DNA from: a bacterium
GTDB taxonomy: Bacteria; Cyanobacteriota; Vampirovibrionia; Gastranaerophilales; Gastranaerophilaceae
Length of the DNA stretch: 56,908 bases
Reading direction: 5' to 3'
Assembly (NCBI GenBank): GCA_014803505.1
Contig: JAAVBM010000088.1
Location: forward strand, 1 to 56,908
Below, one piece after another: positions 8,840-12,354 of the stretch (positions within the stretch are counted from its first letter, which is position 1; every line of letters starts with the position of its first letter). Both the position numbers and the translations under genes were made by a program. The notes under the pieces are model-generated. The model had not been told where the DNA came from. It searched no databases and saw only the letters and a program-made list of their open reading frames with translations.

Positions 8840-10012
8840 TTACTTATTAAATATATTTTCAAATTTTTCTGCCATACTAAGTTTGTATAAATTATCTGCA
8901 ATATTTTGAGCTAGTCCCTTGTAGCTTTGAGAAATATTTGATTCATCATTGATATCGCTCACAGGAACCCCTTTGTTTATAGCGCTCATTATTGTAAAGT
9001 AATTGTTTGGAATTTTCCAATAAATATCTTTGGATAAAACTTTTTCAATATCATTTTCTTTAATTTCGTCGTTTTCCATATATCTGTTAACAACGATTTT
9101 TGTATCTTCTTTATCGTAACCAAGTTTATCAAATAATTCCAAACATCTTTGCGTATTTCTCAATGCCGGAAGATTTGCAACCGTTACTAACATAATTAAG
9201 TCTGAGTTGTCCAGAGCTGCAATATTCTTGCCTTCGAAACTAGCTTCCGCATCTATAATTATGTATGAAAAAGTTTCTTTTAATGTGTTTATCAATTTGC
9301 TTATTTGTTTTGGCTGAATATTATCAGCTTGTTTGAAATAAGGCGGATCCGCCAATACATATAAGCTTGTTTTTTTATATCTTTCAAGTGTACTCAATAA
9401 AAATGTTTCATTTATTTTATCGAGATTTTCAAGCATATATGATATGTTAAAAGATGGTTTTAGGTTCAAAAAAGTTGTAATATCGCCCATTTGGAAATTC
9501 AAATCGATGAGGGCAATATTTTCTTTAGTAATTTTTGATAGTTCAATAGCCAAATTAGATGCGAGTGAAGTTTTTCCAATTCCACCTTTGTTTGAAAATA
9601 TTGAAATAACTTTACATTTGCTATTGTTTACAGTTACAGAATCCTGAGCAATAAGCTTACTAACAGCTTCAAAAAATTCGCTTTTGATAATAGGTATAGG
9701 AACAAATTCTTTAGCTCCTGCGCGCATTATTTCAATAATCAGATCAACAGAAGGATTATCTGATAACGCTAAAACTTTGCAGTTTTTAAATTCTTTTGTG
9801 ACTTTTAGAATCAAGTCAAGTTTAGAGCGTTTATTCGTCGATAAATCAACAATAAATAGAGATTTATCTTTTGCTTCCGATAACTTGTTTAGTATGAAAG
9901 TGGCATCAGTAGTATTAAAAATATCAAGATTATCAAATTCACTAGCGAAAAGCTTAATAACTTCGTTAGTTGAGTATTCTTCTGATAATATAATTGTTGT
10001 AAGCTTATTCAT
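8840..10012 (-). CDS. CpaE/TadZ-like protein: receiver-like domain plus MinD/ParA ATPase
   Basis: A 390-residue protein. Residues 1-115 resemble a response-regulator receiver fold with FIVDLST at the phospho-acceptor strand and a KEFVPIPI motif at its end. Residues 130-375 form a deviant-Walker A ATPase (SNKGGIGKTSLASNLA near 140, IALIDLNFQMGD near 165, YIIIDAEAS near 250). This pseudo-receiver plus ATPase arrangement is that of CpaE/TadZ, which localise Flp/Tad pilus machinery at cell poles. Related ATPases also position flagella or other machines. No tad genes are adjacent, so the cargo is unknown. It has its own promoter at 10037-10065 and shares a transcript with the gene at 8369. Confidence 0.8.
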   Translation of the reverse strand: MNKLTTIILSEEYSTNEVIKLFASEFDNLDIFNTTDATFILNKLSEAKDKSLFIVDLSTNKRSKLDLILKVTKEFKNCKVLALSDNPSVDLIIEIMRAGAKEFVPIPIIKSEFFEAVSKLIAQDSVTVNNSKCKVISIFSNKGGIGKTSLASNLAIELSKITKENIALIDLNFQMGDITTFLNLKPSFNISYMLENLDKINETFLLSTLERYKKTSLYVLADPPYFKQADNIQPKQISKLINTLKETFSYIIIDAEASFEGKNIAALDNSDLIMLVTVANLPALRNTQRCLELFDKLGYDKEDTKIVVNRYMENDEIKENDIEKVLSKDIYWKIPNNYFTIMSAINKGVPVSDINDESNISQSYKGLAQNIADNLYKLSMAEKFENIFNK

Positions 10013-10076: not shown

Positions 10077-10253
10077 GAAAAAAGCCCCGTATAGGCGGAT
10101 TTTGTTACCTGCTTTGGCTCGCAGGTGGGTGAGCACCCTGACTAATCCGTTTCCCGCTGGCGATAAAAATCGGCGGGTATACTTCAATGCCATGGAGTTA
10201 ACTCTCCCTATTTATATAAATGTAGGAACAAAATTAACACCCATACAGAGCTT
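10077..10253 (-). ncRNA. Structured non-coding RNA of ~177 nt, family unassigned (6S-like in size and end pairing)
   Basis: The minus-strand transcript predicted from the promoter at 10259-10287 starts at about 10252-10253. Its first 16 bases (10253-10238) pair without interruption with 10097-10082, using G-U wobbles at five positions, and 10234-10227 (ATTTTGTT) then pairs with 10106-10099. The closing stem is followed by TTTTTTCTTT, an intrinsic terminator. Enclosed hairpins are GGAG/CUCC (10207-10204 with 10197-10194), CCCGC-CGAU/AUCG-CCA-GCGGG (10177-10153), GGGU/ACCC (10138-10127) and ACCUGC/GCAGGU (10126-10107). Length and paired ends recall 6S RNA, but the many-branched interior does not. 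No riboswitch consensus, SRP, tmRNA or RNase P motif was recognised. An overlapping 62-codon ORF is incidental. Confidence 0.75.
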
Positions 10254-10258
10254 GCTTC

Positions 10259-10287
10259 ATTTTAACATATTTTTTCAAGCTTTGCAA
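10259..10287 (-). promoter_or_regulatory. Sigma-70 extended -10 promoter of the structured RNA
   Basis: On the minus strand: TTGCAA (10287-10282), 17-base spacer, TAAAAT (10264-10259) preceded by TGT, an extended -10. The predicted +1 at 10252/10253 coincides with the first base of the RNA closing stem. Confidence 0.78.
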
Positions 10288-10305: not shown

Positions 10306-12354
10306 TTACATTTTTAAAATACTTTGAGCATATTTTTCTGCAGCATCAGCTTCAGCGATAGCTGAACTATAATTACTCATATCAGTGTTTTGTTGAATAA
10401 CAGCTGCTTGTGGACTCGGAATGTATGTTCTTACAGGTTCAGTTTCTTCCTGTTTTTTTTCTATTGGTTGTTGTTGGAAGTTACTTTCTGGTGATGGAAT
10501 ATAAGATCTGAGTTCCGGTTTTTGTCCGTTTGCGGTCATTTTGATTAAATTAGTATTACTTGTATATGAGTTTGGATTTCTTTGAATTGTAGCATGTTCC
10601 GGAGTTTTGACTTGCGGAATGTTTTGTTCACTTACGTTGGAATTAGCTGCAGTTTCAGAAATTTGAGTTTCTTTTTCTTCTTTATCTTCATCTAAAACTG
10701 AATTTGTAGGGCGTCCAAAGATCGCATGTGTTGCTTTGGTTGTCCATTTTGCAATAAATGGTGAGATAAGCATCATTGGAATAAGGAATCTTATAGGATA
10801 ACCAACTATATTTTTACCCCAATATTTTGATTTTCTCAAAAGATTTAGGTTTGCAGCGTCTTTTGAAGCATAAGGTTTAATTCTTTCGATACCTACAGTC
10901 AATATTTTGCCTGCTTTTTTCAATAGTTTTAAGAATGGGTTTTTAACTCCAGCCATAAGTTGTCTATCTAGAACTTTTTTTCTAAGTTTATAACCTTTTT
11001 TGCTAACAGCACCTTTTACTGCATATCTTTCGTTAAAGAATTTTAGATTTTTTCTATAAGCTTCAACTTGATCTTTTGTCATTCCAAGATATTTCAAGCC
11101 ACCAACTTTATGCATAGCCCAGATTCCAATAGGTAGAGCTAAGAAGTATGAAAAATCGTTAACAAATCTTTCTGCTAAAGTTTTACCTTTTTCACCTTTT
11201 GGTGCTTTTGCTGTGTGAATAAGCATATCTGCAAAGATTGCAGCTTGCATAAGTACAGCCATTTTTCCACCTGCATATCTGTTTGTGCAGCCTTCAATTA
11301 AGTATCCGAAGCCCTTACCAACAGCTTTACCAAATTTTGTTTTTGCACCGGTTTTAGCCGTTACGGATAATTTGTTTACAATTTCAGATAATCCGACTTC
11401 ACGTCCAAATAAGTGACCAAATACTTTACCTAGGGTGCCATCTTTTTTCCAAATTACAACTTTTAAATTTTGATTTCCGTTTTTAAGTGTATTTGTAAGT
11501 TCGTTCAAGTGAGATAGAGCGTAAGATTCTTCTGTTAATTTTGCGTAATGTTCTACTGAGCTGAAACCTAAACCTTTGGTGATTTTTAATTCTTTTAGTA
11601 ATTTAGCAACTTCATCAGCTGATTTTCCCACTATATCAGCTGAATTTACTCCGAAAAATTGAAGTTCTTCTAATTGAAGACGTTTTAATTTTTCAGCTTT
11701 TGATAAGCCTTTTATTGATTCCATGAAATTATTGATGTAAGTGGAATCTTTTCCGTATTGTTTTAATTGAGCACCTTGTTCTATTGGTTTTAAAAATTCT
11801 TCAAATACTTGTCTTACATCTGCAATTTTAAAACCATCCAAACCTGCTGCCGGAACTTTAACCATTTTACATTCAGGTTTAGTTGGGGTATTTCTTAAAG
11901 CGTAAAGTATTCTGTTTTTAGGATTATTAGTAACTCTGTCTAAGTATTGAACGATAGCATTATATGCATTGCCTAATGTTTGAATAGGTTTTGATTTATA
12001 AAAATTACTACCGGTAATGGTGTCAGATAGTTTGTCAGCTTTGCCGGTAACTTTACCTAAAATACTTTCTTCGTATGTTCCATTACATTTTGCATTAAAT
12101 TTATCCATACCTTGGGATATTCCATACCATAATGCAGCAGTAAGCGGTACAGTGTAAGGGCTTTGTCCCATCTCTGCACTGTTTTTTACCCTATTCCCAA
12201 GTTGCGTATCACTGACATTTTGAGGTACTCCAGGAATGGTTGTTGTCCCTTGCATTGCAAGAGCTTGGGTTTGTAATTGAGATGGATTTTGTCTGAAACT
12301 TACTGTTTTTTGTTGTAAGCTCGGAATGTTTAATGAATTAACTTGTTCTGACAT
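10306..12354 (-). CDS. Large hypothetical protein, lineage-type, with hydrophobic segments and YIPSP repeats
   Basis: A 682-residue basic protein with no recognised family. The Gln/Ser-rich N-terminus carries a KTVSFRQNP motif (residues ~16-24) similar to the starts of the proteins at 48196 and 48675. Moderately hydrophobic stretches occur near residues 68-80, 365-385, 400-420 and 530-550 (FLIPMMLISPFI), so membrane association is likely. The last ~130 residues are low-complexity and contain two copies of R-S/T-YIPSP, near residues 610 and 645. There is no classical signal peptide. It is transcribed toward the RNA gene, from which its stop codon is only ~20 bases short of the promoter -35. 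Function unknown. Confidence 0.7.
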   Translation of the reverse strand: MSEQVNSLNIPSLQQKTVSFRQNPSQLQTQALAMQGTTTIPGVPQNVSDTQLGNRVKNSAEMGQSPYTVPLTAALWYGISQGMDKFNAKCNGTYEESILGKVTGKADKLSDTITGSNFYKSKPIQTLGNAYNAIVQYLDRVTNNPKNRILYALRNTPTKPECKMVKVPAAGLDGFKIADVRQVFEEFLKPIEQGAQLKQYGKDSTYINNFMESIKGLSKAEKLKRLQLEELQFFGVNSADIVGKSADEVAKLLKELKITKGLGFSSVEHYAKLTEESYALSHLNELTNTLKNGNQNLKVVIWKKDGTLGKVFGHLFGREVGLSEIVNKLSVTAKTGAKTKFGKAVGKGFGYLIEGCTNRYAGGKMAVLMQAAIFADMLIHTAKAPKGEKGKTLAERFVNDFSYFLALPIGIWAMHKVGGLKYLGMTKDQVEAYRKNLKFFNERYAVKGAVSKKGYKLRKKVLDRQLMAGVKNPFLKLLKKAGKILTVGIERIKPYASKDAANLNLLRKSKYWGKNIVGYPIRFLIPMMLISPFIAKWTTKATHAIFGRPTNSVLDEDKEEKETQISETAANSNVSEQNIPQVKTPEHATIQRNPNSYTSNTNLIKMTANGQKPELRSYIPSPESNFQQQPIEKKQEETEPVRTYIPSPQAAVIQQNTDMSNYSSAIAEADAAEKYAQSILKM

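Follow-up and report, generated by a model that had tools for sequence, protein, structure and literature searches.

A gene in a Gastranaerophilales bacterium that almost certainly encodes 6S RNA, and its conservation across the order

The comparative analysis of the window (the whole 56,908-nucleotide stretch of DNA that was analysed) indicates that positions 10254-10080 on the minus strand almost certainly encode the 6S RNA of this Gastranaerophilales bacterium, for which a promoter-mimicking rod, binding to the RNA polymerase holoenzyme and release driven by a product RNA (pRNA) are predicted by homology. In cmscan the sequence matches the Rfam 6S family, RF00013, over the full length of the model (1-187) with 50.5 bits; the weak side of the identification is that this lies just 4 bits over the gathering cut-off of 46.4. 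It is the sole gathering-level Rfam match in the entire window, and a search of the genome with RF00013 returned a single 6S match at E <= 0.001. A covariance model of the lineage (R1), whose training set included the window sequence, gave 176.4 bits at 10080-10255, and the conserved element CACCCACCUGC...GCAGGU lines up with the RF00013 consensus. The original prediction had remarked that the size and the pairing of the ends resemble those of 6S RNA, and had proposed a comparison with Rfam; this resemblance proved to be the right lead. The transcript is predicted to run from about 10253 to about 10077. The features discussed below are as follows.

10080-10254, minus strand: very probable 6S RNA gene (RF00013, full model 1-187; cmscan 50.5 bits, sole match in the genome, R1 176.4 bits)
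10259-10287, minus strand: promoter-like site, TTGCAA, 17 nt, TAAAAT preceded by TG (extended -10 in 45/53 loci)
10238-10253, minus strand: closing stem P1, 5' strand (both-side changes in 11/14 counted pairs, 52 sequences)
10082-10097, minus strand: closing stem P1, 3' strand (end overlapped by the U-run 10083-10078)
10227-10234, minus strand: P2, 5' strand, overlapping the predicted pRNA template (7 counted pairs, 100% of cells paired)
10099-10106, minus strand: P2, 3' strand, pairing with 10227-10234
10209-10226, minus strand: central bubble, 5' side (unpaired in the minimum-energy fold and the consensus)
10221-10222, minus strand: predicted pRNA start, template C10222 with adjoining adenine A10221 (columns C34 and A35, invariant in 52/52)
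10107-10126, minus strand: hairpin of 6 bp in the 3' side of the bubble (4 counted pairs, 100% of cells paired, 2 with both-side changes)
10127-10208, minus strand: apical arm, 10208-10189 with 10142-10127, plus the tip 10177-10153 (12 pairs, 98.1% of cells paired, 8 with both-side changes)
8840-10012, minus strand: CpaE/MinD-like ATPase gene, not part of the RNA (promoter-like site TTGCAT, 17 nt, TATACT, found in 18/18 such loci)

The 177-nt piece folds with a free energy of -65 kcal/mol (z -5.73), and none of 200 shuffled sequences folds as well; together with a conserved promoter of its own, this bears out the earlier description of a stand-alone structured RNA. The closing stem pairs 10253-10238 with 10097-10082 over 16 bp with zero mismatches, as had been described, although it holds four G-U pairs and not five. 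The predicted 8-bp inner stem, P2, was found at 10234-10227 with 10106-10099, and it is present in the minimum-energy folds of 50 of the 52 members of the alignment. The closing stem, central bubble and apical arm that make up the 6S rod are seen in the fold of the window RNA, in the consensus structure and in the covariation, while the single-sequence folds of the relatives are divided.

Comparison of 52 distinct sequences supports this structure. In the consensus 95.9% of cells are paired and both-side changes occur in 26 of 43 pairs; in 500 shuffles the observed values were never reached, whichever of the five measures is taken. When the pairing partners are slid along the alignment, the paired cells drop to 39-49%, a control in which the consensus is favoured over the slid versions because it was derived from the same alignment. 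Since 24 of the 52 sequences had entered solely through the Rfam search, the count was repeated with only those 28 genomes that the DNA similarity search had found; here both-side changes occur in 24 of 43 pairs, again with 0/500 shuffles. Compensatory substitutions in the closing stem, which the original prediction had set as a test, are present among the relatives in 11 of 14 pairs. For P2, two of the seven counted pairs changed on both sides and five are invariant.

The interior of the molecule had been drawn with four local hairpins, and this branched form was put forward as an argument against 6S RNA. Two of the four, the hairpin at 10126-10107 and the apical tip at 10177-10153, are present in both the fold and the consensus; the other two, 10207-10194 and 10138-10127, appear as local alternatives that lack compensatory changes (both-side changes in 0/8 pairs over the 52 sequences). 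The rod-like apical arm is built from the same bases, and here 8/12 pairs and 118 cells show both-side changes, so the covariation backs the rod-like arm over the two local hairpins. Of 500 shuffles, 22 reached the arm's count of such pairs and 4 its count of pair types; none reached the other three measures. Folding of single sequences gives a divided picture, with the rod arm in 17 of the 52 members, a local hairpin in 26 and neither in nine; the window RNA folded singly forms the rod. The two local hairpins can be paired in 82.3% of cells, because their bases hardly vary. We consider the comparative evidence stronger than the single folds, which would make the local hairpins possible alternative conformers.

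The sequence UUUUG(U/A)UCCU(A/U)CA, which covers the 5' part of P2 and the bubble, is among the most conserved stretches of the RNA. Read as a template from C10222, it yields GUAGGAACAAAA, with GG at positions 4/5, AA at 9/10 and an adenine adjoining the start; C10222, A10221 and the CC and UU of the template are invariant in 52/52 sequences. The GG, the AA and the adjoining adenine are described as hallmarks of known pRNAs (PMC8414754). In 6S RNAs the pRNA template is expected in P2 and the 5' side of the bubble, with AA at 9/10, the adenine, and GG at either 4/5 or 5/6; the window RNA and all other members of the alignment fit this pattern.

Known 6S RNAs are described as mimics of an open promoter that bind the housekeeping holoenzyme and are released through pRNA synthesis upon the return of nutrients (PMC8876501, PMC5721685). 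By analogy with these we infer polymerase binding, pRNA synthesis, release and a physiological role for the RNA described here. The rod with its central bubble would imitate an open promoter, and the RNA would bind RNA polymerase with the housekeeping sigma factor and keep it occupied when nutrients are low. When NTP levels rise, the polymerase would take the RNA as a template, starting opposite C10222 and moving towards the 5' end of the RNA. The product would start with G, as in GUAGGAACAAAA, and short products starting opposite C10222 are expected to begin GUAGGAAC. Synthesis of the pRNA would open P2, and the polymerase would be freed. Fourteen matches to Sigma70_r4 were found in the genome, 13 of them above the cut-off, a count that does not separate the primary sigma factor from the others.

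The release step was modelled by barring template bases from pairing. With 10-16 bases barred, the predicted fold of the window RNA loses P2 and keeps the closing stem and the apical arm; at 20 bases, local hairpins replace the apical arm. With 14 template bases occluded, 6/52 members were predicted to form a bubble-collapse helix like that of B. subtilis; the window RNA, its template likewise occluded, was not among them, so the release step may differ. It is conceivable, but doubtful, that the 6S RNA of the order represents a subtype, with a near-invariant, A+U-rich P2, a GTP-started pRNA, mostly no predicted collapse helix and a release route unlike those of the E. coli and B. subtilis types. 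On this reading the released form could be the one with the local hairpins, which half of the members prefer when folded singly.

The RNA appears as a gene in its own right, with one copy in the genome and its own promoter. The extended -10 promoter had been predicted in this place, and we found it there, with TTGCAA beginning at 10287 and TAAAAT ending at 10259. The promoter scan gave 11 such sites where 14.3 were expected; as such sites are no commoner than in shuffled DNA, the support for the promoter comes from conservation, an extended -10 being present at the matching place in 45/53 loci compared with 258/3180 random places in the same DNA. For the 3' end, the prediction of a U-run is correct, with a T-run of at least four following the RNA in 44/53 loci, although in the window the run does not simply come after the closing stem but, at 10083-10078, overlaps its last two pairs. 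The scan for hairpin terminators returned 0 where 1.7 were expected from shuffles, and for this reason we do not regard the predicted terminator as established. The U-run and the long closing stem may serve to form the 3' end, or it may arise by processing.

The CpaE-like gene starts 67 nt downstream of the RNA on the same strand, and an arrangement of this kind would suit a cis-regulatory 5' leader. The gene adjoins the RNA in 19/53 loci and lies downstream in 18 of these, but in all 18 a promoter-like site stands between the two (a count made without a random control), with TG preceding its -10 in the sequences displayed. In the one remaining locus (L007) the gene flanks the opposite end of the RNA and points away from it. 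Outside the genus, 25 of 25 loci keep the RNA while neither neighbour gene was found in the flanks, which covered up to about 1.5 kb and were in some cases shortened by contig ends. With a conserved promoter of its own and a separate promoter-like site for the next gene, the RNA is very unlikely to be a leader, and we rejected this reading; the original prediction of a separate RNA, followed by a gene with its own promoter, agrees with these loci. A small protein gene is a still poorer candidate, of almost negligible probability: an ATG-started open frame of 62 codons is present at 10193-10005, but ATG, GTG or TTG occurs at the matching place in just 14 of the 51 other members, the longest open frame is spread over all six frames among the 52 members, and the length differences between aligned pieces are not divisible by three. 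On these three counts it was rejected. A tRNA scan of the window found none.

The two genes that flank the RNA differ in their conservation. The CpaE/MinD-like ATPase (8840-10012, minus strand) has a receiver-like N-terminal part, for which the Response_reg match is weak and below the cut-off. Upstream, a gene of 682 codons (10306-12354, minus strand) is found beside the RNA in 18/53 loci, its own included. Its protein is 34-62% identical in other loci, compared with 69-78% for the CpaE-like protein, and it had no match in Pfam at E <= 0.001 or in NCBIfam at E <= 0.01. Judged by its sequence, the product appears to be a fast-changing protein to which Pfam and NCBIfam assign no function.

Two further readings accept a structured RNA and dispute its family. 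The suggestion in the original prediction of a new family, 6S-like in size and paired ends alone and with a branched interior, is favoured by the single-sequence folds, in which one of the local hairpins forms in 26/52 members, by the ability of the local hairpins to form in most cells, and by the 115/146 genomes of the order that gave no match above the Rfam cut-off under strict filters. The sequence nevertheless exceeds the Rfam 6S cut-off over the full model, which leaves the proposal unsupported; compensatory changes are confined to the rod-like arm when it is compared with the two local hairpins, and the pRNA hallmark positions are invariant. We therefore rejected a branched new family, which we hold to be extremely improbable, on the Rfam match and the covariation, and the single folds stand as a contrary result. 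The second reading is an Ms1-like RNA. Ms1 binds the polymerase without a sigma factor and is not known to serve as a template for a pRNA. It is named alongside 6S as a structured RNA that binds polymerase (PMC11077062). Against it, positions 10500-9900 gave no Rfam family other than 6S at E <= 1, in a library from which the Ms1 family may be absent, and the template positions that a pRNA would need are invariant; the chance that this is an Ms1-like RNA appears minimal. A 6S RNA remains the reading that we prefer by far.

To place this 6S RNA in its lineage, we considered its distribution across the order. A DNA similarity search found the element in 28/40 genomes and, within the genus, in 24/25, the window's own genome counted. 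With RF00013 and strict filters, 121/146 genomes of the order have a match at E <= 0.001 and 31/146 have one above the cut-off; both are lower bounds, because strict filters lose weak matches, and one genome without a match under these filters (G057) gave 37.5 bits in another RF00013 search. The lineage model, built from 52 sequences of the lineage, finds one copy each in 141/146 genomes, many of which supplied sequences to the model, and it gains 20 of the 25 genomes that RF00013 missed under strict filters. It found no match in five of the 146 (G038, G044, G076, G094 and G147). The covariance-model search within Gastranaerophilales that had been proposed at the outset thus returned a near-universal, single-copy RNA. 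In a genus of the same family (g30, 8 sampled genomes) the candidates are longer and more divergent, at 187-200 nt and 74-101 bits with the lineage model, and these genomes gave no RF00013 match under strict filters. Outside the order but within the class, RF00013 matched in 18/48 genomes, one of them above the cut-off; the class tally of 30/60 includes 12 genomes of the window's own family.

Some observations concern individual records. Among the matches listed, many exact matches to the motif come from bacteria labelled Gastranaerophilales, Melainabacteria or Cyanobacteria. Motif matches also occur in records labelled Acinetobacter and Fusobacterium (L081, L091 and L121); the few matches under other genera are probably mislabelled bins, and the label of L121 is probably such a case. 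One genome (G002) has two 6S loci, L019 and L030, which are identical at all seven 150-base places compared, reaching 1.2 kb to either side, and its assembly carries 8% contamination. These probably represent a duplicated or mixed contig and not a second 6S gene.

Our literature search found no published report of 6S RNA for Gastranaerophilales, Melainabacteria or non-photosynthetic cyanobacteria, although a broad 6S survey may list the lineage. What we describe looks like an ordinary, well-conserved copy of 6S RNA in a little-studied host lineage, and only the host and the extent to which the Rfam cut-off misses the lineage are new here. The work extends the record of 6S RNA to a gut order near the cyanobacteria and provides a concrete, testable pRNA sequence; the known working mode of 6S RNA is unchanged by it. 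The counts suggest that the Rfam cut-off would leave many 6S genes of the order unannotated, as 31/146 genomes pass it compared with 141/146 with the lineage model.

Consideration of known 6S RNAs shows where the RNA of this lineage agrees with them and where it differs. With the RF00013 (6S/SsrS) family it shares the closing stem, the central bubble, the apical arm, the CACCCACCUG...GCAGGU element and a full-length match above the cut-off; it differs in that its score is near the cut-off and its lineage is poorly covered, with 31/146 genomes above under strict filters. RF00013 was also matched in the control cyanobacterium Synechococcus elongatus. The 6S RNA of Synechocystis, SsaA, is described as influencing sigma factor exchange and the way cells recover from nitrogen starvation (PMC5721685), whereas the Melainabacteria are described as non-photosynthetic. 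There are further parallels with B. subtilis 6S-1 RNA, which even when free carries a small hairpin on the 3' side of its bubble, a feature described for 6S-1 and for the lactic acid bacterial consensus (PMC8876501, PMC8414754); the hairpin at 10126-10107 sits at this place, opposite the 5' bubble. Also shared with 6S-1 are the GTP-started product RNA, which is predicted for the window RNA, the GG and AA hallmarks and the adjoining adenine (PMC8876501, PMC8414754). In contrast to B. subtilis, the window RNA has no predicted bubble-collapse helix, and its genome carries one copy where B. subtilis has two (PMC8876501). Finally, the GG of the predicted pRNA lies at positions 4/5, as in E. coli, A. 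aeolicus and R. sphaeroides, while that of the lactic acid bacteria lies at 5/6 (PMC8414754).
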